Shown here in pieces: positions 4,991 to 46,175 of a stretch of DNA of 47,359 nt (the stretch's first letter is position 1; each line of letters begins with the position of its first letter). The position numbers and the translations under genes were made by a program. This stretch comes from a virus, in IMG/VR virus record IMGVR_UViG_3300019124_000088, positions 1 through 47,359 of that record; one strand, given 5' to 3'. Under the pieces are notes generated by a model, which searched no databases, was not told the DNA's origin, and saw nothing but the letters and a program-made list of their open reading frames with translations.

Positions 4991-6916
4991 TCAGGCGGTC
5001 AGGGCCTGAAGCTCGGTGTTGGAGAGGCGCTCGGGGAAGTAGGTGACGCGGCGGATGTAGCCGTTGAGAGGAACCGTACCTCCCGGCCGGGTTCCGAGAC
5101 GCAAGGTCGACACGACCGGGATAGCGGCCGCCCCAGTCGCGACGGTCGAGCCGCCGCTTGAGACGCCGCAATCGGCCGCCTTGTATGCGCCCGCGATGCG
5201 CGACACGCTGCCGTCGGCGATTGCTGAGCCTGGGGCCACATCGAACCCTGTGACACCGCCGCTCGTTACCACAAACCCGCCGATGTTCGGGATATTGCGC
5301 GTGATCATCATGCGGTTTGACGCAGTGCCGTCGTCGGTGTGCAGGAGGGTATCGGACGCAAGCCCAGCCGTCCCGGGGTTATGAAGCGCCTCGGCATAGA
5401 AGGTACCCTCGACCGGATTGAACTCCGCCCCGAGCGTTCGCGTGATCTGATCAGCCTGGCGCGTCGCCGCAGAGCCCGTCGTGCGGATCGGAGATGTGGC
5501 AAAGGCACCCTGCTCAATCTGTGGCGAGCCAATGCGCTCCTGACAGGTCATGCTCACACCGCTGACGTGCGTAACCAGCAGGCGAAACAGCACAAAAGCG
5601 GTATTGGCCGGAAGATTGGCAAAGGTCACTTCATGCCTCTTCCAACTCAGTCGATCTGCATAGATGTTCTTGACAGCCGGTGACCCGACCTGAGCACTTG
5701 AGGAATTGAGAGCATAGATTAGCAGCTCAATCTTCGTGATGTCCGGATCATCGACGAGCATCTGGTAGAACAGCGAAGCGGTCCAAGTCTCACCAGCGTT
5801 TGCTGGAGCGGATCCGATGGGTTGCATAAAATCGATGTAGCGACTGGCGCTTCCTGTCGTTCCACTCCACGCAATATCGACAGTATTGATAGCGCTAGCG
5901 GCGTCCACAGCGACAAGGGTCCGCGTCAGCCCTGCCGCCGAGTAGCCCCATCCTGTCGGCGAGCCGTTTACTCCGGCTACGGCACCCACCATCCCGCTGT
6001 TCTTCACTTGGTTCGTCCGCGCCTCCTCGACCAGCAGCCCCTTGTCGGTGATGCGCGGCTCGTTCGCCCCAAACGACACCCAGGTGCCGTCGGCCTTCTG
6101 CGCCATGCCGGGAGAGTTCCGGGTGCAGGTGAAGGCCGCAGCCCGTTCGACCGTCGTGCGGTCGATGGCATAGACATCGTTCACGAAGTCGAAGTCGAGG
6201 CTGCTGCCTTCCATCGACCAGAACGCCGCCGTATAATCGAACACGACAGTGGTGTGCAGCGGAGCCAGGCGCCGGAACACGCATTCGAGGTCAGCGGCGA
6301 CCGCGAAGCCCTCGAGGGGCGTGTCGTCGCACTCGCCCTCGTCGCAGTAGAACCAGGTATCGCCGAGCCCGTTGAGTCGCACCACCCATTCATGGTGGCC
6401 GTTGACGTTCACCACCGTGTCGTCGCCGTCACATTCCGAGACGTCGCAGATGAAGTCCGAGGGCTCGGTGATGCTGACCTCGTACCCGATGGAGGCAGCC
6501 AGGCACACGAAGTAGGCCGGGCTCGATCCTCCTTGGGCCCCGAAGCGCGCCCGCACGGCATTGATGCGGCCCTGTACGCCGGAGTCAGGCGAGGTGCAGG
6601 GATCGGGCAAGCCATATTCCGCCTCCCAGTCCTCGAGAGAGAACGTGATGCCGGAGGGAAAGCACTGCACGGCCGTGTCGAAGGCGGCCTTGTAGAGGTC
6701 CGCCATCCAGCCGGCCATGGCCGTCCAGACCTTGCGCATCACCGGCGAGGCGCCCGTGCCGTCGCTGGCCTCGTCCGTGCCCCAGATCACCCCGCGCGGG
6801 GCGGTGGCAATCACCTGCGGCAGCAGATCCTCCTGCGCCGGCGCGCTCAGCCGGTCGCCCACGGAGGGCGGCGAGGCAGGCAGCAGCGCGCAAGGCCAGC
6901 CGGGCTGAACCGCCAT
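4991..6916 (-). CDS. Mu gp48-like baseplate protein fused to a tail fibre/lectin region
   Basis: 641 residues, with AAGGAG well placed before the ATG at 6916. Residues about 25-230 match the YmfQ/DUF2313 (Mu gp48) baseplate family: LPPVIATAPRG-like start, a middle with EDWEAEYGLPDPC, and acidic Cys-containing loops. From about 235 the protein changes to a fibre architecture. A motif around 255-300 (FTCTRNSPGMAQ...GLLVEEARTNQ) is typical of phage head-spike/fibre proteins, followed by a concanavalin-like beta-rich C-terminus (about 480-641). The fusion would attach a receptor-binding fibre directly to the baseplate. Joining two normally separate genes is somewhat unusual. Confidence 0.75.
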   Translation of the reverse strand: MAVQPGWPCALLPASPPSVGDRLSAPAQEDLLPQVIATAPRGVIWGTDEASDGTGASPVMRKVWTAMAGWMADLYKAAFDTAVQCFPSGITFSLEDWEAEYGLPDPCTSPDSGVQGRINAVRARFGAQGGSSPAYFVCLAASIGYEVSITEPSDFICDVSECDGDDTVVNVNGHHEWVVRLNGLGDTWFYCDEGECDDTPLEGFAVAADLECVFRRLAPLHTTVVFDYTAAFWSMEGSSLDFDFVNDVYAIDRTTVERAAAFTCTRNSPGMAQKADGTWVSFGANEPRITDKGLLVEEARTNQVKNSGMVGAVAGVNGSPTGWGYSAAGLTRTLVAVDAASAINTVDIAWSGTTGSASRYIDFMQPIGSAPANAGETWTASLFYQMLVDDPDITKIELLIYALNSSSAQVGSPAVKNIYADRLSWKRHEVTFANLPANTAFVLFRLLVTHVSGVSMTCQERIGSPQIEQGAFATSPIRTTGSAATRQADQITRTLGAEFNPVEGTFYAEALHNPGTAGLASDTLLHTDDGTASNRMMITRNIPNIGGFVVTSGGVTGFDVAPGSAIADGSVSRIAGAYKAADCGVSSGGSTVATGAAAIPVVSTLRLGTRPGGTVPLNGYIRRVTYFPERLSNTELQALTA

Positions 6917-15388: not shown

Positions 15389-16921
15389 TTACTGAAGCGC
15401 CGCGATCTGGCTGTTGAGCTCAGGGAAGATCGTGACGTTGGCCGCGAACACCCGGAGCTGGTTCGCCACATCGAAGGGGATGTAGGCGTTGACCCGGTTC
15501 GGATCGCCTGAGCGCTCCACGATCACGAACTGCGCGAACAGCTCCGGCTTCTCGGCTAAGCCTGCCTCGAACAGTTCGCGGTAGGCATGGATGAGCGTCG
15601 CCTTGATCTGCTGCGGTGTGACGATGCCCTGCACCTTGCGCGGGTTCTCGTCCTTCAGCACGTGGCGCGGATAGGTCGAGAGGATGCGCTGCTTGAAGTA
15701 GCGCGCCGCGTACATGGCGATGTAGAGGGTCTCGACATCGAGATAGGTGATGTCGGGCTGCCCCCAGGCATTGGTGCGGTAGGTGGTCACCACCCGGTCG
15801 ATGGCAGCCTGTCCGTCGGCGCGGAAGATCACCGCCGAGATGCCGTTCGAGTAGAGCGACTGCCGGTCGGCCTGTTTCCACTGATCGGACGCTGCCTTCG
15901 GAGCACGGATGCCCTGCAGCACAAGGGTGTGCAGCGGCGCGGCGATTTCCGTCGCCTCGGTGATCGAGCGCCCGAGATCCTTCGAGAGGCCGACCAAGCC
16001 GACGATGGCGGCGACGAACGACCACAGGGGCTGCGGATAATTGTTCGTGCCGAAGATTGACACGTGCTGGTCGTTGCGTCCTTGGCCGAGGGCCGTCTGC
16101 GCCGCCAGGTTGCCGTTGAAGGCCGTGAAATAGTGCCCCATCAGTCCGACGGTCGGCGCCCAGCGCCCCGTGCCGGAATCAGACAGGAAGTCGCGCACCG
16201 CATTGAGCTGGCTCGCCGAAACGTAGGGCGATCCGATGTGATCGAACGGTGCGTCGCCAAGCGCGGCGAGGGCTGTGGCGAGGTCCACGTCGCCGGTCCC
16301 GCCCGACATGGGCGTGATGGTGACGGTCAGGCCTGCCGGATCGATCTCGTCGCCGTCGAGGCCCGCCTCGATGCGGATGCCGTTGCCCTCCGTGCCCACA
16401 TGCCGGGCCGTGAGTGTCACGGTGCCGGCGGAGACTGCCGTGGTGACGGGCGCGCTCATGGCCCGGTTGAACTTGGTATAGCCGCGGTCGATGGCAGCCT
16501 TCAGGGCCGTGGCCACCGTTGCGGCGGTATCGCCCACCGCAACGCCGACTGAATAGCGCTCGCCCGCGACGTAGCGCACCAGGGTGCCTGCGGCGGTGGC
16601 TGTGCCGGTGATGGCGATGGAGCCCGCGGCGGCGGTGCCGCTCGGATCCGTGACCGGCAGCAGCCAGATCTCGCCGATGGGATTGTGCTGGCGGGCATAG
16701 AGGCACTGGTCGGCCAGCATGGAGCCGGGGCCGAACAGGGCGTTGGGATCGCCCGCGCCGAGGTTCACAGCCTTGCCGATCTCCGCCGAGCCCGCCGATG
16801 TCTTGCGGCCGATCAGCAGGGTCCGGGACAATCCGGAATAGGGCGGGACGCCCGCATTCACCTCGAAATAGGCACCGGGCACCCGGATGTTGCCCGGCAT
16901 GTTGTTGAAGGCGACAGCCAT
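15389..16921 (-). CDS. Contractile tail sheath protein (Mu gpL-like)
   Basis: 510 residues with GAGGAG upstream. It has the sheath family features: IRVPGAYFEVNAG near the N-terminus, PPYSGLSRTLLIGRKTSAG, a long variable beta insertion (about 100-220), and the C-terminal core with IFRADGQAAIDRVVTTYRTNAWGQPDITYLDVETLYIAMYAARYFKQRI. Its presence shows the phage is a myovirus. It is followed by the tube gene and preceded by DUF2635 and a hairpin. Confidence 0.92.
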   Translation of the reverse strand: MAVAFNNMPGNIRVPGAYFEVNAGVPPYSGLSRTLLIGRKTSAGSAEIGKAVNLGAGDPNALFGPGSMLADQCLYARQHNPIGEIWLLPVTDPSGTAAAGSIAITGTATAAGTLVRYVAGERYSVGVAVGDTAATVATALKAAIDRGYTKFNRAMSAPVTTAVSAGTVTLTARHVGTEGNGIRIEAGLDGDEIDPAGLTVTITPMSGGTGDVDLATALAALGDAPFDHIGSPYVSASQLNAVRDFLSDSGTGRWAPTVGLMGHYFTAFNGNLAAQTALGQGRNDQHVSIFGTNNYPQPLWSFVAAIVGLVGLSKDLGRSITEATEIAAPLHTLVLQGIRAPKAASDQWKQADRQSLYSNGISAVIFRADGQAAIDRVVTTYRTNAWGQPDITYLDVETLYIAMYAARYFKQRILSTYPRHVLKDENPRKVQGIVTPQQIKATLIHAYRELFEAGLAEKPELFAQFVIVERSGDPNRVNAYIPFDVANQLRVFAANVTIFPELNSQIAALQ

Positions 16922-27105: not shown

Positions 27106-27121
27106 AGCCCCTAATCCTGTT

Positions 27122-27433
27122 GCGAGAGTTGCGAGGGTTGATCGAGGGTTTTCAAAAACCCTCGCAACCTCATTTTCTTCAACACCTTCATACATTTAGT
27201 TACTTTTCTACGAGGGTTGCGAGGGTTTGTCCCATATACATGAGAATTTTCATCGTCTTAGAAACCGTCCCCCGTAGCCCCAAAACATATACATACGCGA
27301 GGCGAAACCCTCGCAACCCTCGCAGAACACGCGCAACCCTTTGATCATGCTCACTTATGTGGTTTGCGAGGGTTTCGTATAACCCTCGCAAACCCTCTCA
27401 ACCCTCGAAAGAATACACGCGTACGCGAGGGTT
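27122..27433. repeat. Iteron array, probable phage origin of replication
   Basis: This 340-bp gene-free stretch holds 13 copies of GCGAGGGTT or its complement. Perfect copies start at 27131, 27157(-), 27219, 27306(-), 27315(-), 27366, 27381(-) and 27425; one-mismatch copies start at 27122, 27142, 27210, 27391(-) and 27400(-). Several are in tandem at 9-bp steps. Two inverted pairs occur (27143-27164 and 27366-27389). AT-rich DNA at about 27170-27209 could be the unwinding element. It lies directly behind the primase-helicase gene. Confidence 0.8.
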
Positions 27434-27445
27434 TCGGCCATCGGC

Positions 27446-30247
27446 TCAGTCGTCATAGGGGCTGCGGGGTTGCGCATCCGGGCGCGGTGGCACGTCGTGC
27501 AGCCGGCAATCAACGTACTGGCGGATGCGGCTCTTGTCGTCGCGGGCGAACTTGGTCTTCATCACCCGGCCGAACTTGGTCTCGAACACCGGCTTCTTCG
27601 CGTTCGCAATGCACCACGACACGTAGGAATCGTACATCACCCGTGCCGGCACATTCTCGCCGGGCGCCTTCTCCACGCAATCCGCCGCGAACTGCCCGAT
27701 CGGGTCCATCTCGTCGCGGTACTCCTGCGTGGCGGCCCTCACCTCGTCGGGCAGCACGAGTCCTTCCCTGAGGTAGGTAATGGCCCCTTCGACAAGCCAG
27801 TTGAGGATGCCGGACTGCTCGTCGGCAAAGCCGCTCACCACATCCTCGAAGTTGCCCTGCCGGCTTTCCTCCAGCGTCACCGGCCAGTGGATCACCGCGA
27901 TCCGGCGCCAGATGCCATTGTCGGTGCCGTCGATGCGCGGGAAGCCGTTGCCGGACATGTGCGCCTTGAACACGGGCTGGAACTCGAAGAAGCCCTTGAA
28001 CAGCGATCGCACCGGGATCTTCTCGCCGCCCGTGAGCTTCTTCACCAGGTCTTCCTGCACGGGCTTGTCCGCCGGCAACTCGAGCACGCGCACCACGCGC
28101 CGGCCGTAGAGCCGCGCAAGATCCGGGCTGGCGCCGGCGCCGGAGCGTTCCGAGGAGCCGACGATGGACTCCGACGGCAGGCCCACGGCGAGAGGCCCGA
28201 AGAGGCGCATCAGCACCTCCATGAAAACCGACTTGCCGTTGGCGCCGAGCCCATAGTGAAACAACAGCTTCTGAATCGGCAGCCCCAGCAGCCCGAGCCC
28301 GGAGAACACCTGCACGCAGCGGCGCACGCTCTCCACAGGCAGGAATTCCTCCAGGAACGCGGTCCATTTCGGGCACGTGGCCTGCGGATCGTAGATCACC
28401 GGCACGATATGGGTGATGTAATCCTCGCGCCGGTGTCCTTCGATCACCTCCACCCTGCCGGTCATGCGCGGCTCGTCGGAATTGGCGTTCTCGTCGTCGA
28501 CCATGCGCACGAAGCGCAGGGTATGCGCCTTGGTGGCGACGAGCATAGGGTCAGCGTTGAAGGCGTCCGGCCGGCGGGTGAGATGCGGCGCGGCGCAGGC
28601 GAGCATGGCCTCCAGCCTCGCCTTGTTCTTGGACGAGACGGCGAACTGCCGGCGCGCCTTCTTGCGCTTGTCCAGGGCCGCCCGGGCTTCCTTGCCGGCG
28701 GAAATCGATCGCTCCAGGTCGCGCACCTTCGCCTTGTCGGCATCGTTCCACTCGGACCGCCGGGTCTCCATTGCCGCAAGTTCCACCGCGGCTCGCTCCG
28801 CATCCGCCAGAAGACGCTTCTCATGCGGCAGGAAGGTGAGGAAATCGGCCTCCAGGGCAATGCGGCCGCCTATCTTCTGAGCGACCCGCAGGGCGGCGTC
28901 GTTGCCGCTGACGATGTCCCAATGCGTTCCGGTCCAGGCGAGGAAATCGAGATTGCGCGCGCCTTCCTGCTCCATCACGCACAGATCCTGCCCGAAATGC
29001 GCGATCAGTCGGCGACCGTTGTCGGTGTCGGAGTGATCGAGGGCCGCGCAGCGCTCCAGCACCTCGGGATCGACACCCGTGGCATCGGCATCCGATGGCC
29101 CGGCATCGCCATCCTCGTCGAAACGGTCACCGGAAGCGCCGCCGTCATCGAAGGTTCCCTCAGGCTCTTGAGACGGCGGCGCTGCGGGGCGCGCCTCAGA
29201 TCGAGGCGGCGCCAGACGCGCGCCCTGCTTGGAGCCGAATCGCTCGGCCCGTTCGCGGGCCTTGGCGGCCACGTCAGTGAGATCGCGCGGCTGCATCAGG
29301 CCTGCCTGGAAACCGGACTGAATCGTGTCGCGCACGGATTTCCAGCCATCATCCTTCACCAAGCCGCTGCGGTTGGCGGCATCCTCCAGCGAGGCCCGCA
29401 CCACGCTCTCGGTGAGCACGCCCGCCGCGACGAGCTGCGCGAGCGCGAAGGCCGCCCGGTTGAGCGCGTGGTTGCGCTGGCCGGATCCGGCGCGGGCCAC
29501 CTCCTGGATTTCCTTGTCCATGGCGGCAATGGCATAGCGGCGCACGCTGTCATCCGCCAGGTCGCCGGGTGACGGCGGCGGAGCGGGCACCCGCTCCCGC
29601 TGCCGGTCGCGGGAGAACTCCCCGCGTCGCAGGATCACGTCGAGCAGCCGCGGCGGCAGCGCGGGTGGGGGCTCGTCGTCGGGTTCCGCTTCCCAGGCGT
29701 ATGCGAGGCCGTCGACCATCACGGACGGCGGCACGATCACGTAGCCTCCCTCGCCACGAATATCCACATGCTCGCGGATCGCCTCGTCGATGCCATCCAC
29801 ATGCTTGAACAAGGCCGCACGGTTTCCGAGCTTCTCGCTCTCCGTCAGATCGGGATAGGCAAACCACAGGTGCAGCCCACCCGATTGCGTGCGCACCACC
29901 GGGCAGGGCGGCAGAACACCGCCGCAGAAATCTGTCACTGCCCGCAGCATCGTGTCGGCGGGAAACGTCTCAGGGTCGAGATCGAGCACCACGATGCCGG
30001 AGCGGGCACCCGTCGGCAGACCGATCAGAGCCTTGGGCCACCGCCGCCACCACTCGCGGATCTGCGCCCCATCCGTGGTGGCGAGGTACAGGCCTCCATC
30101 CTTCGCGCCGGGCTGCGTCTCCTTCGGAGTGAGCGGCCGCTTCGAGACGCCCTTCTCCTGGCTGGGCGAGCATGGGAACACAGGCCATCCGCGCGCCGCA
30201 TAGGTCAGCGCCATGCCAAGGAGAGGCGATTCCACGGGCGCGTTCAT
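27446..30247 (-). CDS. Primase-polymerase / SF3 helicase replication protein
   Basis: 933 residues. N-terminal prim-pol domain (about 5-200): RGWPVFPC, IVVLDLDPE with the metal-binding DLD (89-91), GGLHLWF (about 123-129), and DIRGEGGYVIVPPS. Residues about 450-560 are a charged helical/coiled segment. The C-terminal D5/P4 alpha-type SF3 helicase has Walker A GLGANGKS (about 663-671), then LPADKPVQEDLVKKLTGGEKIPVRSLFKG and GNGFPRIDGTDNGIWRRIAVIHWP. It should melt the origin and prime replication. The iteron array follows its stop; it overlaps the helicase-methyltransferase gene by 4 bp. Confidence 0.92.
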   Translation of the reverse strand: MNAPVESPLLGMALTYAARGWPVFPCSPSQEKGVSKRPLTPKETQPGAKDGGLYLATTDGAQIREWWRRWPKALIGLPTGARSGIVVLDLDPETFPADTMLRAVTDFCGGVLPPCPVVRTQSGGLHLWFAYPDLTESEKLGNRAALFKHVDGIDEAIREHVDIRGEGGYVIVPPSVMVDGLAYAWEAEPDDEPPPALPPRLLDVILRRGEFSRDRQRERVPAPPPSPGDLADDSVRRYAIAAMDKEIQEVARAGSGQRNHALNRAAFALAQLVAAGVLTESVVRASLEDAANRSGLVKDDGWKSVRDTIQSGFQAGLMQPRDLTDVAAKARERAERFGSKQGARLAPPRSEARPAAPPSQEPEGTFDDGGASGDRFDEDGDAGPSDADATGVDPEVLERCAALDHSDTDNGRRLIAHFGQDLCVMEQEGARNLDFLAWTGTHWDIVSGNDAALRVAQKIGGRIALEADFLTFLPHEKRLLADAERAAVELAAMETRRSEWNDADKAKVRDLERSISAGKEARAALDKRKKARRQFAVSSKNKARLEAMLACAAPHLTRRPDAFNADPMLVATKAHTLRFVRMVDDENANSDEPRMTGRVEVIEGHRREDYITHIVPVIYDPQATCPKWTAFLEEFLPVESVRRCVQVFSGLGLLGLPIQKLLFHYGLGANGKSVFMEVLMRLFGPLAVGLPSESIVGSSERSGAGASPDLARLYGRRVVRVLELPADKPVQEDLVKKLTGGEKIPVRSLFKGFFEFQPVFKAHMSGNGFPRIDGTDNGIWRRIAVIHWPVTLEESRQGNFEDVVSGFADEQSGILNWLVEGAITYLREGLVLPDEVRAATQEYRDEMDPIGQFAADCVEKAPGENVPARVMYDSYVSWCIANAKKPVFETKFGRVMKTKFARDDKSRIRQYVDCRLHDVPPRPDAQPRSPYDD

Positions 30248-32757
30248 TCTGCGGCTTCCAGAGAGGGCGGCGCGAAATCGAAGAGCGACGGCATCGCCAT
30301 TTGGCGCTCCTTCGCCTCAAGGTACTTGACCCCATCGAAGAAATAGCCGGTGTTGAGTTCCGCAGCGCGGCCCCTGCGACCCAGATGCAGCGCCCGGTAG
30401 GGCACCGTGAACAATCCGCCGAAGGGATCGAAGACGAGTTCACCCTTGTTGGAATAACGCTCGATGCAGCGGTCGACGATATCGAACTGCAAGGGACAGA
30501 CATGCTTCTCGCGGCCCTTCGCCGACTGGTTCGTGTTCAGGGTCAGCATGCGGTTGACATCGTCCCATACGAAGGCGCTGGACGCCCCCGGCATCAGGGC
30601 CATGAAGGTCGAGGGCAGCGCATGGCGGGTCTGGAGCGCTTCGCCGATCCGGACGTGGTGCTCGTAGTCGTAAATGCTCTGCAGGCTGTAGGCCCTAAAC
30701 ACCTTGGCGAGAACATCAGGTGGCAACGCCGCCATCTCGTCCGGTGACAGAAGACGATCTCCGCTGGAACGCCAGCGGGCATGGGCATCGATCTGCCAGC
30801 GCGCGAGGCTGTAATCCTCGATCCTCTTGACGACCGGATCGTCGGCATAGGCCCGGCTGCGGTCGGTGGGCAGCTTGCGCATCAGGAGCAGATACTCGGG
30901 CGAGCCCACGCCCATCTTGGTCCCGTCCTTGCGCATTTCCGTGTAGCCGAGACGATAGGTCTGGTTGTTCTCCCGCACCACGTCGGTGTCGATCTGGATC
31001 ATGCCCATATAGGCAAACCCATGCGACATGCAGTGAAAGAGCGTCTTGGCATGGAAGGGGTTGACCGTCGGCGTTCCGTAGCCGGTCACCGAACCGAACA
31101 GGATCCGGTCCTTGACATGAATACAGGCAAGCCGACCGGGCTTGAGGATCCTGAGCAGCTCCGGCGTCAGAAAGTCCATCTGGGCGAAGAAATGGTCGTC
31201 GCCGTCCGTATGCCCGAAATCGTTGTAGCTCGGCGTGTACTCGTAGTGGTTCGAGAAGGGAATCGACGTGACGATCAGGTCGATGCTGTTGTCCTCGATC
31301 AGTCGGCATTCCTCGACGCAATCGTTGTTGGCGACCAGCCACCCCTCACCGCTGGCCTCGATCCGCTCTACTCCGATGGACCGCGTCAGGACCTCGGCCA
31401 TGGCCAGATGATTGAGGCCGTGCTCCCTGATGATCTCAGTCATAGTTTCAACCATCTCGTTGTGCCGCGCCCACTTGGCCTGGAGCGTGCGGAGAACCTC
31501 GCGCTCGCTCTCGGCGTAGATGATGTGGATCTCCACCGGATGCGCCTGCATGAAGCGCTGGATGCGGTGAATCGCCTGGATGAAGTCGTTGAACTTGAAG
31601 CCGATGCCGAGGAAAATTGCCTTGTGGCAGTGGCGCTGGAAGTTGCAGCCCGATCCGGCGATCACGGGCTTTGCGGCTAGGTACTGAAACCGACCCTCGC
31701 TGAAGTCGACGATGGCGCGCTCGCGCTCCTCCAGGTCCTGCGCCCCATAGACGCTCACGGCCCTCGGCACGGCGGCCTCGATGGCCCGGCGCTCATCCTC
31801 AAGGTCGTGCCAGAGGAGGTAGTGACTTTCGGGATCCGCCTGCAGAATCGCCTGCATGGCGGCGATGCGCGCCGGCAGGCTGTCGCGCTTCTCCTTGGCC
31901 GTGTCGGTCAGGTTCAGGGCGGCATCGCGGAAAAGGATGCCCTGGCCGTCCCGGTCAGGGCCTGCTGCCGCCAGATCGATTTGAACCTCGTGGTAGACCG
32001 CCGTCAGCGGCGGAAGCTCGTAGCCATCATCCGGGAAGCCGAGATCGGACGGCCGTTGCAGGAAGATGGCCCAGGAGTTGAGCCAGAGCCAGAACTCCTT
32101 TTCCTTGTGCGGATAGAGTGTGAGGTTGTTGGCCTTGGAGCTGTCGCGCTGGAAGAACCGGGTCAGCGCCTGGCCCGTATCCATGACGCCAAGGAAGCCA
32201 GCATAGTGAATCAGCTCCTTGTAGCGGTTTGGGCTCGGGGTCGCGGTCGCCACGAACCGATAGCGCACATGGTCGAAGAGCGAGAGAAAGGTCTGGTAGG
32301 TCTTGGAGCCGAACGACCGCAGGACGGAGGCCTCGTCGAGGCTCGCCACGTCGAACAGATTGGGATCCAGCTTTCCGTCCCGCACGGTCTCGTAGTTCGT
32401 CATGTAGAGGCCCGGCCCGTCGATCTCCTCAGGCCTGCGGATGAACCGGATCGTCAGGCCGAGCATGGCCGCATCCCGGGTGAACTCCTGACGGACGCCG
32501 AGCGGGATCACGAGGAGCCCCCGTCCGCTGTCACCCACACCCTTCAGGACCAGCCGCATCGCCTCGAGCTGCATGACCGATTTGCCGAGACCGAACGCGG
32601 CGAAGATGGCACGACGACCGCCACGAACCGCCCATTGCACGATGGCCTTCTGGTGGGGTTTCAGGAGCGGGTTGATCTCGTCGAGATCCACATGGAATCC
32701 GATCGAGGGCGCCATCCGCACCTTCTGTTCGAGAAACGTGCGATAGGAGGCACTCAC
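30244..32757 (-). CDS. SF2 helicase fused to a beta-class DNA methyltransferase
   Basis: 837 residues. Helicase half (about 30-430): LKPHQKAIVQWAVRGGRRAIFAAFGLGKS (Walker A about 53-60), DEAS (141-144), TATPSPN (171-177) and QAIHRIQR (motif VI, about 394-401). Methyltransferase half (about 475-810): NNDCVE, the catalytic-type motif TSIPF (497-501) with NHYEYTPSYNDFGH, and DPFGG (about 776-780) near the end; motif IV before motif I marks the beta class. TSIPF differs from the usual TSPPY/DPPY. It likely modifies phage DNA against host restriction. A nuclease domain is not visible. Confidence 0.85.
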   Translation of the reverse strand: MSASYRTFLEQKVRMAPSIGFHVDLDEINPLLKPHQKAIVQWAVRGGRRAIFAAFGLGKSVMQLEAMRLVLKGVGDSGRGLLVIPLGVRQEFTRDAAMLGLTIRFIRRPEEIDGPGLYMTNYETVRDGKLDPNLFDVASLDEASVLRSFGSKTYQTFLSLFDHVRYRFVATATPSPNRYKELIHYAGFLGVMDTGQALTRFFQRDSSKANNLTLYPHKEKEFWLWLNSWAIFLQRPSDLGFPDDGYELPPLTAVYHEVQIDLAAAGPDRDGQGILFRDAALNLTDTAKEKRDSLPARIAAMQAILQADPESHYLLWHDLEDERRAIEAAVPRAVSVYGAQDLEERERAIVDFSEGRFQYLAAKPVIAGSGCNFQRHCHKAIFLGIGFKFNDFIQAIHRIQRFMQAHPVEIHIIYAESEREVLRTLQAKWARHNEMVETMTEIIREHGLNHLAMAEVLTRSIGVERIEASGEGWLVANNDCVEECRLIEDNSIDLIVTSIPFSNHYEYTPSYNDFGHTDGDDHFFAQMDFLTPELLRILKPGRLACIHVKDRILFGSVTGYGTPTVNPFHAKTLFHCMSHGFAYMGMIQIDTDVVRENNQTYRLGYTEMRKDGTKMGVGSPEYLLLMRKLPTDRSRAYADDPVVKRIEDYSLARWQIDAHARWRSSGDRLLSPDEMAALPPDVLAKVFRAYSLQSIYDYEHHVRIGEALQTRHALPSTFMALMPGASSAFVWDDVNRMLTLNTNQSAKGREKHVCPLQFDIVDRCIERYSNKGELVFDPFGGLFTVPYRALHLGRRGRAAELNTGYFFDGVKYLEAKERQMAMPSLFDFAPPSLEAAE

Positions 32758-34478: not shown

Positions 34479-34501
34479 GGGAAAAAGCGAAGGCTTTTCC
34501 C
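34479..34501 (-). terminator. Hairpin terminator between Cro-like and CII-like genes
   Basis: GGGAAAA(A)GC pairs with GCTTTTCCC, loop GAAG, one bulged A. On the minus strand the 3' arm carries five consecutive T residues, so this is terminator-like. Its place between cro and cII is that of lambda tR1. Confidence 0.55.
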
Positions 34502-34564
34502 AGAGCGGGAACGGTTAAGGTTTGCGATGGTGGCGGCGTTACGACATCACGGAGGACCCCGCAC

Positions 34565-34864
34565 ATGAACGCCCTGCCCCATCGCACCGGCCCGGCCCGC
34601 GCCCACCTGAAGGAGGCGCTGCGCAGCCTCGCGCTCGCTCAACGCGAGGGCGGACTCAATCTGCCGAAGCAAATACTCGGCTGTCCTGACAAGGCAGGGC
34701 TTGGGAAGACGGGCGACCACGAACGCCTCAGGCCTCACTTCATCGGCCAAGAGAGAGCAACCGTCGTGTTGCAGCCGAGGGCTCATGCGACTTCCTCCGA
34801 GGAAGAGGGAGAGACCGGAGGGCGCGGGACATCGCGCGGCCAGACAGCATCGTCGGGCCAATGA
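34565..34864 (+). CDS. Possible small plus-strand gene, uncertain
   Basis: A 99-codon frame opposite the early operon, with a strong Shine-Dalgarno sequence (CACGGAGGA) 8 nt before the ATG. The first 40 residues (helical, RAHLKEALRSLALAQREGGLNLPKQIL) look protein-like, but the rest is low in complexity and antisense to the Cro-like gene. It may be an intact small gene or a decayed one. It covers most of the 325-bp stretch 34458-34782; apart from the hairpin at 34479, I see nothing else there. Confidence 0.35.
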   Translation: MNALPHRTGPARAHLKEALRSLALAQREGGLNLPKQILGCPDKAGLGKTGDHERLRPHFIGQERATVVLQPRAHATSSEEEGETGGRGTSRGQTASSGQ

Positions 34865-38396: not shown

Positions 38397-39050
38397 ATGT
38401 CAGACACATTCTACGAGCAAGCGGTCAAAACCGTCGTTGACTATGGCAAGGCCTCGCCGAGCTTGATCCAGCGCAAGCTCCAAATCGGCTACAACCGTGC
38501 GGCGTCGATCATTGAACGGATGGAGCAAGAGGGCATCGTCGGCCCGGCCAACCATGCAGGTCAGCGCACCGTCTTGAGGAAGACGGCAGACGTGCAGACC
38601 ACTGTCACCCTGAACGTGCCAGGTCGGCCGAGCGTCACAACAGACCTCAAGACGCTGGAGCGGGCTGCAAAGCTTGTGAGGAAGGGCGATGGCCCTGGCC
38701 CCGTTCGTGCGTTGCACAGTGCCGTCGGCCGTCTCAACGATCCGGGCCAGACGTCCCTCGATGAACACCCGGAGTTTCAAAAAGCTGCAGCGGAATCCAC
38801 CGACATGTTCCGGACTGAGGCAGTGGCCGCCGACCAGCTGAAAGCCTTTATCGAGCGCATCGAGCGCCTCGAGGAGGAAAAGGCCGGAATCGCGGGCGAC
38901 ATCAAGGACGTCTATGCCGAAGCCAAGGGCAACGGCTTCGACACCAAGGTGATCCGCAAGATCATCTCCCTGCGCAAGCGCGACTACGCCGAGCGTCAGG
39001 AGGAGGAGGCAATCCTCGAACTCTACATGCAAGCGCTGGGGATGGACTAA
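38397..39050 (+). CDS. FtsK gamma domain fused to GapR (DUF2312)
   Basis: 217 residues from the ATG at 38397. Residues about 5-60 ([20 protein letters not shown] ... [20 protein letters not shown]) match the FtsK gamma winged helix, which in FtsK reads KOPS polarity sequences. Residues about 140-217 ([20 protein letters not shown] ... [20 protein letters not shown]) match GapR, a nucleoid protein that binds overtwisted DNA and aids topoisomerases ahead of forks. The linker (61-139) is basic and Pro/Gly-containing. It abuts the clamp gene (ATG overlap), so a phage replication or DNA-topology role is likely. I know of no characterised protein with this combination. Confidence 0.85.
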
Positions 39051-40171
39051 TGCTTAAGATCGTTGTCGAACGCGCAGCCCTCCTCAGGAGCCTCGCGGCC
39101 CTCAACCGGGTGGCGGAAAAGCGCACCACCATTCCGATCCTCTCCAGCGTTCTCCTGGATGCTGCCGGCGAAGCCCTGAGCCTCAAGGCGTCGGATCTCG
39201 ATATCGAGATGACCGGCCGCATTGCCTGCCAAGTGGAGACGGCGGGCGCCATCACAGTGCAGGCCCATCTGTTGCACGACATCGTGCGCAAGATGCCGGA
39301 CGGGGCGCAGATCGCCATCGAAGCCATCGACAGCGGAGGGCGCGTGGCCGTAAAGGCGGGCCGCTCGCGCTTCACCCTGCAGGCCTTGCCCGCATCCGAT
39401 TTTCCGGATCTCGCCGCCGGCAAGTTCCCGCATTCCTTCACCCTGCCGGGCGTGGCATTGGCCAAGATGATCGCGCGCTCCAGCTTCGCGATCTCGACGG
39501 AGGAGACGCGCTTCTACCTCAACGGCATCTATCTCCATGTCCAGGGCAGCCACCTCTATGCCGTCGCCACCGACGGCCACCGCCTGGCACGCGCCCATGT
39601 GGATATGCCGGCCGGCCTGGAGGGGATGGACGGCATGCCAGGCGTGATCGTCCCACGCAAGACCGTGGCCGAGCTCGCCCGCCTCGCCGAGGAAGCCGGC
39701 AAGGACGATCTGCGCATCGGCCTGTCGCCGCACAAGATCCGCGCCGCCTTTGGTGACACGGTGCTGACCTCCAAGCTGATCGACGGCACCTTCCCGGATT
39801 ACCAGCGGGTCATTCCGACGGCCAACGACAAGGTCGCCACTGTGGAGATCACGGCCCTCAAAGCCGCCATCGACCGCGTTTCGAGCGTCTCGACAGAGCG
39901 CGGCCGGGCCGTGAAGCTCGCCTTCGACGACGGCCGGCTAACGCTCACCGTCGAGAATCCCGATGCCGGCACCGCCACAGATGAGATCGAGATCGACTAT
40001 GACGCCGAGGCGATCTCGATCGGCTTCAATGCCAGGTACGCCCTCGACATCGCCGGCGCGCTCGGCACCGACACGGCCGTGATCAGGCTCGCCGACAACG
40101 GCTCCCCGACGATCTTCCAACCCGCCGCAGACGACACACTGCTCTGCGTGCTGATGCCCATGAGGGTGTGA
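39050..40171 (+). CDS. dnaN: Phage-encoded DNA polymerase III sliding clamp (beta)
   Basis: 373 residues, the full length of bacterial beta clamps, with all three clamp domains. Hallmarks: LNRVAEKRTTIPILSSVLLDA near 17-38, RSSFAISTEETRFYLNGI (about 143-160), YAVATDGHRLA, TSKLIDGTFPDYQRVIP, FNARYALDIAGAL and the C-terminal VLMPMRV. It should tether the host Pol III or phage polymerases to phage DNA. The gene overlaps the FtsK gamma/GapR stop. It is a separate copy from the host's own dnaN and could differ in protein-protein contacts. Confidence 0.95.
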   Translation: MLKIVVERAALLRSLAALNRVAEKRTTIPILSSVLLDAAGEALSLKASDLDIEMTGRIACQVETAGAITVQAHLLHDIVRKMPDGAQIAIEAIDSGGRVAVKAGRSRFTLQALPASDFPDLAAGKFPHSFTLPGVALAKMIARSSFAISTEETRFYLNGIYLHVQGSHLYAVATDGHRLARAHVDMPAGLEGMDGMPGVIVPRKTVAELARLAEEAGKDDLRIGLSPHKIRAAFGDTVLTSKLIDGTFPDYQRVIPTANDKVATVEITALKAAIDRVSSVSTERGRAVKLAFDDGRLTLTVENPDAGTATDEIEIDYDAEAISIGFNARYALDIAGALGTDTAVIRLADNGSPTIFQPAADDTLLCVLMPMRV

Positions 40172-44403: not shown

Positions 44404-44559
44404 ATGTCCTCCACCCGCCCCGCCATCAAGCCGCCCGAGCGGCCTCTCGATCCGGACCTCGTCCGGCTCATAGAGGCTCTTGCGGAAGCGAACGCGCTCC
44501 GCGATCATCGCGCGGCAATTGCGGCTCGCGAGGCTGCGGGGAAGGCAAAAGGACCATGA
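44404..44559 (+). CDS. Small protein coupled to the serine integrase
   Basis: 51 residues: Pro-rich start (STRPAIKPPERPLDPDL), then a helix VRLIEALAEANALRDHRAAIAAREAAG. The stop overlaps the integrase start as ATGA. Short proteins like this commonly precede large serine recombinases in Rhizobiales. Function is unknown; a regulator of integration is possible but unproven. Confidence 0.6.
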   Translation: MSSTRPAIKPPERPLDPDLVRLIEALAEANALRDHRAAIAAREAAGKAKGP

Positions 44560-46175
44560 AGCGCGCCGCGATCTACGCCCGGTACTCGACAGACCTGCAG
44601 AACGAGCGCTCCGTCGAAGATCAGGTCGCCCTCTGCCGCGCCTATGCCGAGCGCGAAAGGCTCCAGGTCGTAGCAACCTTTGACGACCGGGCCCGCTCGG
44701 GCGGCTCCATGCTGGGACGCGACGGCCTGATCCAGATGCTCGCCCAGGCCAATTCCGGCGCCTTCGACGTGATCGTCGTCGAGGCCCTCGACCGCCTGTC
44801 CCGCGACATGGCGGATCTGGCGACCATCCATAAGCAGCTGAAGTTCAAGGGGATCGAGCTACGGGCCGTCCATGACGGTCGCGCCGATACGGTCCTCATC
44901 GGCCTTCGCGGCTTGGTTGGACAGCTCTTCCGGGAGGACGGAGCCAAGAAGGTCCGGCGGGGCATGCAGGGGGTCGTGAGGGACGGGCGGCATGCCGGCG
45001 GCAAGCCCTATGGCTACCGCACCAGCGCGACGAGGGGCCTCCTCGAGATCGATCCTGCGCAGGCCGCCGTGGTGCGGCGGATCCTGACCGAATATGCCGA
45101 CGGCCGTCCGCCGCGGGAGATCGCGGGCGACCTGAATCGGGAGGGTATCGCTCCCCCAAGGGGGCGCACCTGGAATGCCTCCACGATCAACGGCAGCAGC
45201 CAGCGGGGGAATGGGATCGTTCGCAACGAGATCTATATCGGCCGGATCGTCTGGGGGAAGGTCCGCATGGACACCAACCCCGAGACCGGCCGTCGAATCT
45301 CACGGCCGGCGGATGGTTCAGAGGTCATGACGGCGGAGGCCCCGGAGCTGCGCCTGGTCGATGACGCGCTCTGGCAGAGGGTGCAGGCCGTCAACGAAAC
45401 CAAGGCTGCGCTCAAGTCCCACCAGAAGCGCCGGCCACCGCACCTGCTCTCCGGCCTGCTGCGCTGCGGATGCTGCGGTGCGGGAATGTCCGTCCATGAT
45501 CGGGACAAGACCGGAAAGACCCGCGTCCGCTGCTCGGCCGTGCGCGAGAGCGGCGTCTGCACGAATCGACGGATCATCTACCTGCCAGCGATCGAGCGGG
45601 CCGTGGTCGATGGCATGAGGGAGCAGCTGCGAGATCCTCGCTATATCGAGATCTACGTCGGGCGCTACAACAGCGAGCGGCAGCGTCTCGCCTCCGCCGC
45701 CGTGAGGAACCGTGCCAGCCTCGAGGCGAGGCTCGCCGAGCGGCAACGCGAGTTCGACCGGGTGATGAACGCCTATGTCAAAGGGTTCATCACGGAGGCC
45801 GAGGCGGAGCAGAAGATCCCGGAGTTGCGCAGGGAACGCGACCAGATCGCCGCCGAACTCGCGGCGGCCGGAGAGGACCCGAAGGTGCTGACCCTGCACC
45901 CCGGCGCGATCAACGACTATCTGAAGCAGGTCGATGAGCTTGCCGCGACGCTGGCTGACCATGCACACCAGGGCATGGACAAGCTAACTCAGATGTTCCG
46001 CTCACTCGTTCACAGCGTGACGGTGTATCCGAACGGACCACGCGAGGGATTTGAGGTGGAAGTAAAGGGCCGCCTGGCCGAATTGGTTGGCGGCGATTCC
46101 TTTCCCACAGGCCGTTTTAGTGGGGTGAACGTGGTAGCGGAGGAGGGATTTGAACCCCCGACACAAGGATTATGA
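44556..46175 (+). CDS. Large serine integrase (recombinase)
   Basis: 539 residues. Resolvase catalytic domain (1-150) with nucleophile Ser11 in YARYSTDLQNERSVEDQ. The recombinase domain (about 155-285) includes GGKPYGYR, DLNREGIAPPRGRTWNASTI and IYIGRIVWGK. A zinc ribbon (about 300-340) has CGCC, RCSAVRESGVC, followed by a coiled coil (about 365-440). It integrates and excises the prophage. The last 14 codons, VVAEEGFEPPTQGL, are read from the antisense strand of the tRNA-Met 3' half, so the end of the gene lies across the attachment site. Confidence 0.93.
   Translation: MKRAAIYARYSTDLQNERSVEDQVALCRAYAERERLQVVATFDDRARSGGSMLGRDGLIQMLAQANSGAFDVIVVEALDRLSRDMADLATIHKQLKFKGIELRAVHDGRADTVLIGLRGLVGQLFREDGAKKVRRGMQGVVRDGRHAGGKPYGYRTSATRGLLEIDPAQAAVVRRILTEYADGRPPREIAGDLNREGIAPPRGRTWNASTINGSSQRGNGIVRNEIYIGRIVWGKVRMDTNPETGRRISRPADGSEVMTAEAPELRLVDDALWQRVQAVNETKAALKSHQKRRPPHLLSGLLRCGCCGAGMSVHDRDKTGKTRVRCSAVRESGVCTNRRIIYLPAIERAVVDGMREQLRDPRYIEIYVGRYNSERQRLASAAVRNRASLEARLAERQREFDRVMNAYVKGFITEAEAEQKIPELRRERDQIAAELAAAGEDPKVLTLHPGAINDYLKQVDELAATLADHAHQGMDKLTQMFRSLVHSVTVYPNGPREGFEVEVKGRLAELVGGDSFPTGRFSGVNVVAEEGFEPPTQGL
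46132..46175. other. Candidate right prophage attachment junction (att)
   Basis: The 3' part of tRNA-Met overlaps the end of the integrase gene. The exact crossover cannot be placed without the other junction. Large serine integrases usually need only a very short identical core. Confidence 0.5.

Follow-up and report, generated by a model that had tools for sequence, protein, structure and literature searches.

The window, the whole stretch of 47,359 bases that was analysed, carries a gene for a 933-aa putative PrimPol-SF3 initiator, identified by domain matches and a structure model, and beyond its stop codon a non-coding gap with an AT content of 51%, compared with 35% for the record. Thirteen copies of GCGAGGGTT occupy 312 bp of this gap (27122-27433), eight of them exact (starts at 27131+, 27157-, 27219+, 27306-, 27315-, 27366+, 27381- and 27425+) and five with one mismatch (27122+, 27142+, 27210+, 27391- and 27400-). 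The renewed search thus returns the thirteen-copy array of eight perfect and five near-perfect repeats in the same numbers and the same place as the original prediction. The features of the locus are the following:

27106-27445, no strand: non-coding gap holding the array, from the SF3 gene stop to the ATG of the next gene
27122-27139, plus strand: distal outer cluster, GCGAGAGTT (one mismatch) and GCGAGGGTT at a 9-bp period
27142-27150, plus strand: distal outer cluster copy TCGAGGGTT (one mismatch)
27157-27165, minus strand: inverted copy of the distal outer cluster, with its counterpart at 27366-27374
27166-27209, no strand: AT-rich spacer, 70% AT, candidate melting region
27210-27227, plus strand: distal inner tandem pair, ACGAGGGTT and GCGAGGGTT at a 9-bp period
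27228-27305, no strand: centre separating the inner pairs, 78 bp, 54% AT
27269-27281, minus strand: G-box GGGGCTACGGGGG, 24 bp from the gene-proximal inner pair
27306-27323, minus strand: gene-proximal inner tandem pair, both exact, at a 9-bp period
27366-27374, plus strand: inverted copy of the proximal outer cluster
27381-27408, minus strand: proximal outer cluster of three copies, one exact and two with one mismatch
27425-27433, plus strand: extra exact copy adjoining the SF3 stop codon, present too in several relatives
27446-30247, minus strand: gene for the 933-aa PrimPol-SF3 putative initiator

All eight exact copies in the record are confined to the array, and the reversed control pattern of the word gives 0 matches over the whole record. 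Shuffled sequence yields 16.6 matches per record when one mismatch is permitted, which corresponds to ~0.1 expected per 312 bp against the 13 seen. A literature search with the exact word gave nothing relevant among the matches listed. Cumulative GC skew shows no clear turning point at the array and is confounded by gene strand, and a promoter and terminator scan of the array found nothing. A hairpin acting as terminator was considered and set aside, as the outer inverted copies do fold but the scan found no T-run.

The record looks like a myovirus-type prophage of Microvirga because it encodes a tail sheath protein (15389-16921, minus strand) and a large serine recombinase (44556-46175, plus strand), and because its neighbouring genes are found at 88-99% identity on a Microvirga arsenatis contig (L141). 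A complete DNA polymerase III beta sliding clamp with three Pfam domains is encoded as well (39050-40171, plus strand). The product of the gene upstream of the initiator (30244-32757, minus strand) resembles phage DNA helicase families along most of its length and matches an N6/N4 DNA methylase domain towards its C-terminus.

Mirror-image layout and the G-box

The repeats had been described as a set of tandem and inverted pairs, and both orientations are indeed present, but the set forms a dyad rather than a mixture, running from outer cluster and inner pair through the centre to the second inner pair and outer cluster with a spacing that is constant across diverged phages. Superposition of 37 non-redundant arrays, with the SF3 gene taken as upstream, places the gene-side outer copies at ~-86, -77 and -66, an inverted copy at -51 and the inner pair at 0 and 9, followed on the far side by the inverted inner pair, an inverted copy at ~+60 and outer copies at ~+76, +86 and +95. 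The centre measures 63-127 bp over these arrays, with a median of 76. The AT-rich segment noted earlier between the repeats is confirmed in the window at 27166-27209. The distal spacer averages 64% AT over 36 arrays, and the distal third of the centre 60%, compared with 36-43% outside.

An element absent from the original prediction is the G-box (GGGG-N-GGGG), which breaks the mirror symmetry. Among arrays whose proteins are less than 75% identical, GGGG-N1-6-GGGG lies in the centre of 22 of the 31 GCGAGGGTT arrays (shuffled mean 0.7) and of 9 of the 16 arrays built on other words (shuffled mean 0.25). It is always on the SF3 coding strand, with 0/47 on the opposite strand, and its distance to the gene-proximal inner pair is mostly 24 bp (IQR 24-26). 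Since this GC-rich record contains the motif no more often than expected (4 occurrences against 4.3), the evidence for the G-box lies in its fixed place and strand. A function as priming or entry site is a guess. Dozens of diverged phages, and a few plasmids as well, show both the mirror layout and the G-rich box.

Association of the array with SF3 genes

Arrays were sought by DNA alone with the tandem pair GCGAGGGTTGCGAGGGTT, in viral contigs as well as in genomes represented once per species, a full array being defined by at least 6 copies on both strands and an association by an SF3 3' end facing the array within 900 bp. Conservation of the repeat in relatives, proposed as a check in the original prediction, is borne out by the 53 viral arrays found in this way. 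A related SF3 (D5-type) gene faces the array with its 3' end at 47 of these loci, while five of the remaining six arrays are no more than 70 bp from the locus edge and the last no more than 560 bp; where the repeat occurs bare, without an array, the SF3 gene is found in 3/45 loci. In genomes, the gene is present at 14 of 21 arrays, with L099 as an overlapping case, and 3 of the rest are near an edge. The SF3 proteins at arrays are often just 35-60% identical to the 933-aa protein. The array thus adjoins the primase/helicase gene as first proposed, with the correction that it stands at the 3' end of the gene and not upstream. A few arrays have no adjacent SF3 gene, and a de novo repeat search returned no clear array at the SF3 relatives L014, L015, L159 and L164.

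Two loci depart from the common arrangement. In Acuticoccus kalidii, a 19.4-kb contig (L177:8892-9213) holds a 15-copy array together with a ParA-like gene and a plasmid initiator of the RPA type, and has no SF3 gene; the sole SF3 match of that genome is on another contig, beside its own array, and the L177 array may represent a decoy or a satellite origin. In Xanthobacter aminoxidans (L116:4362-4931), the array-adjacent gene encodes a 190-aa protein with a Pox_D5-like (winged-helix) match only and no helicase domain, which might be a competitor for the repeats.

The gene on the other side of the array varies between phages while the SF3 gene stays, which bears on the possibility that the array is an operator controlling the SF3 operon or that next gene. 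Initiators often double as transcription regulators, and ~17 bp separate the array from the next gene's start. The array is situated behind the SF3 gene, however, and no sigma-70-like promoter was found in it, and an operator would leave the constant neighbour, the end of the helicase gene, unexplained; this explanation is very unlikely. Still less probable is a packaging site, cos or pac, as might be suggested by terminase genes that are ~1.6 kb away and follow in many loci and by the cohesive end of RcapNL near the equivalent place. Relatives of the terminase are missing or diverged at arrays where the SF3 gene stays, and in Sfi21 the origin and cos are annotated separately. Furthermore, a 46-kb Methylobacterium currus plasmid (L168:4554-6560) has the SF3 gene with a weaker array and neither an annotated phage structural gene nor a GpA terminase match; this plasmid also carries a type I-E CRISPR-Cas locus. 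Short-repeat arrays can also be centromeres, and two plasmid-like array records carry ParA-like genes. The constant neighbour is nevertheless the helicase gene and not ParA/ParB, and annotated phage origins have this same mirror layout, so that a centromere-like partition site is about as improbable as a packaging site.

The putative initiator protein and the repeat words

The 933-aa protein matches PrimPol (PF09250, E 4.8e-36) and D5_N (PF08706), retains an intact Walker A motif (GLGANGKS at residue 666), and gives weak Pox_D5/RFX winged-helix matches at its C-terminus, where the winged helix spans approximately residues 835-925. A structure model of residues 370-933, built from 40 relatives, has a mean pLDDT of 91.8, and its best structural matches are the ASFV PrimPol, the SaPI5 primase-helicase and poxvirus D5/E5. 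The SaPI5 structure 7om0 aligns with model residues 21-554 (Z 26.9, rmsd 4.2, 397 aligned), the SaPI5 chain 7ola is also matched by sequence (E 8.5e-16), and one of the poxvirus D5/E5 matches (9im3) has a solved structure in which two hexamers meet head to head.

In relatives found by protein, GCGAGGGTT is often missing, and other words occupy the same place in the same inward-facing order. A repeat search without preset motif yields GCGATAGTT, TTTGCACCA(GTT), GCGACAGTT, TGACCAGTT, CTGACGGGT and GCGAGGACT, and among named phages GGGGAAGAT in Pan4, GGGAGGCAA in AmM-1, AGGGAGGAT in Sc-Yong805-1 and ACGGGAGGA in A2. On sequence comparison, the repeat word tracks the C-terminal winged helix of the initiator more than its helicase domain. 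Over 77 gene/array pairs, word similarity and identity of residues 835-925 show a helicase-corrected partial rank correlation of 0.52 (0/999 permutations), and the reverse test of word against helicase domain gives -0.19. When the protein is divided into 70-residue slices, values of 0.03-0.28 are obtained up to residue 870 and of 0.44-0.56 between residue 820 and the end. Restricted to the 25 protein-found loci, the comparison gives a weak winged-helix effect (partial r 0.16, 39/999) because everything there follows descent and phylogeny confounds it. The GAGGGTT and xxAGTT groups are told apart by residues 881-883, 889 and 909, of which 889 begins a predicted helix (model 520-530).

Known origins and the proposed mechanism

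Two related phages carry an annotated origin at the equivalent place. In the Streptococcus phage Sfi21, positions 34487-34784 directly 3' of the primase are annotated as 'origin of replication, 302 bp non-coding region, phage inhibitory sequence', and pairs of TTAGTTACT face inward there across ~70 bp of AT-rich DNA. The Lactobacillus phage A2 has a rep_origin annotated at the 3' end of its primase homologue (32208-32717), and copies of ACGGGAGGA face inward in it. Both resemble the array in having inward copies across ~65-75 bp of AT-rich DNA, outer copies and a place 3' of a primase/helicase gene, and the 78-bp centre of the array falls within the 60-80 bp that characterise this type; they differ in their words (TTAGTTACT and ACGGGAGGA, respectively), fewer copies, and the lack of a G-box and of extra inverted outer copies. 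According to published work on the SaPI/PICI elements, the origin is immediately 3' of rep, two iteron sets flank AT-rich DNA, rep and ori together replicate a plasmid, and the C-terminal domain recognises the iterons (PMC6092414, PMC7581432). The window shares the origin position 3' of an SF3 gene, the mirror halves facing inward, the AT-rich distal centre and spacer, and a D5-type SF3 helicase fold (PF08706, 7ola, 7om0) with a C-terminal DNA-binding domain, a likeness judged from the published description and the protein. PICIs are satellites, whereas the window encodes terminase, portal, capsid and tail sheath. Classical Rep_3/RepA iteron origins likewise have several short repeats by the initiator gene and an AT-rich part, but their repeats are direct and their initiator is not a helicase, while the array has mirror-image repeats in both orientations next to a PrimPol-SF3 gene. 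The iteron-origin reading of the original prediction is therefore upheld by comparison as regards the origin, though not as the classical direct-repeat plasmid type.

The most serious alternative mechanism is that the origin is recognised as a cruciform or stem-loop, as in the pRN1 model, and not via repeat words. Proteins with PrimPol-SF3-winged-helix order have been proposed to use a stem-loop instead of iterons, and pRN1 requires an element with a 21-nt stem and a 58-nt loop (PMC4234260). The 933-aa protein has the same domain order, and the array likewise presents a ~100-bp inverted repeat with a long loop of similar length 3' of the gene. Its inner pairs can form a stem with arms at 27206-27228 and 27305-27327 (23 nt, 96% complementary) and a 76-nt loop, and the array strand folds far better than shuffles (z -8), although inverted repeats fold well by construction. 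The pRN1-family element, published as a stem-loop, has no outer clusters, and a stem-loop would not explain the outer copies in both orientations, the constant 9-bp period or the covariation of word and winged helix. The pRN1 arms are themselves periodic: in bases 5080-5185 (L178) they consist of tandem TGTCCA at a 9-bp period, and pRN2 and pHEN7 (L179, L180) have other tandem words at this period (shuffle P 0.003, 0.036 and 0.0045 for pRN1, pRN2 and pHEN7), though the stem arms of pDL10 and pSSVx show no 9-bp tandem period. Recognition as a stem-loop is thus improbable, and the pRN1 element may itself be a 2+2 iteron core, for which these periods are suggestive only. The Bordetella phage BIP-1 (L167) has no array directly at the end of its replication gene; two TTTGCCTCG face two inverted copies across ~70 bp at ~465-570 bp 3' of the gene, a possible origin core unreported by the repeat search of the pRN1 paper.

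Taken together, the array is most probably a phage replication origin recognised by the adjacent PrimPol/SF3 protein (probability of about 0.92), because conservation, position, layout, the covariation of word and winged helix, and the annotated Sfi21 and A2 origins agree. Sequence shows the array, its mirror layout and fixed spacing, its place 3' of the gene, the predicted fold and the covariation. In the proposed mechanism, the C-terminal winged helix of the 933-aa protein would read GCGAGGGTT, and two helicase hexamers, facing one another over the centre, would form on the two mirror halves. The AT-rich DNA on the distal side of the centre and in the distal spacer would then open, the fused PrimPol domain would prime at the opened DNA, and forks would depart in both directions.

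What is new here is that the plan of the SaPI/PICI, Sfi21 and A2 origins occurs in a Microvirga-type prophage that encodes a tail sheath, where it has a new word, a mirror layout of two tiers and a G-box, and that a putative initiator of PrimPol-SF3-winged-helix order is combined with an iteron array, in contrast to the stem-loop proposed in place of iterons for such proteins (PMC4234260). A more tentative and rather doubtful proposal is that SF3 phage origins share an iteron-independent, strand-specific G-box setting the first priming or entry strand and, jointly, that the pRN1 stem-loop is a minimal 2+2 iteron core of the same architecture; if true, one origin design would extend from archaeal plasmids to bacterial phages. 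The origin reading would make the origin readable in a large group of phages, most of them alphaproteobacterial, and add a conserved G-box to the described origin elements, and the linkage of each word to the winged helix that probably reads it would amount to a testable specificity code.
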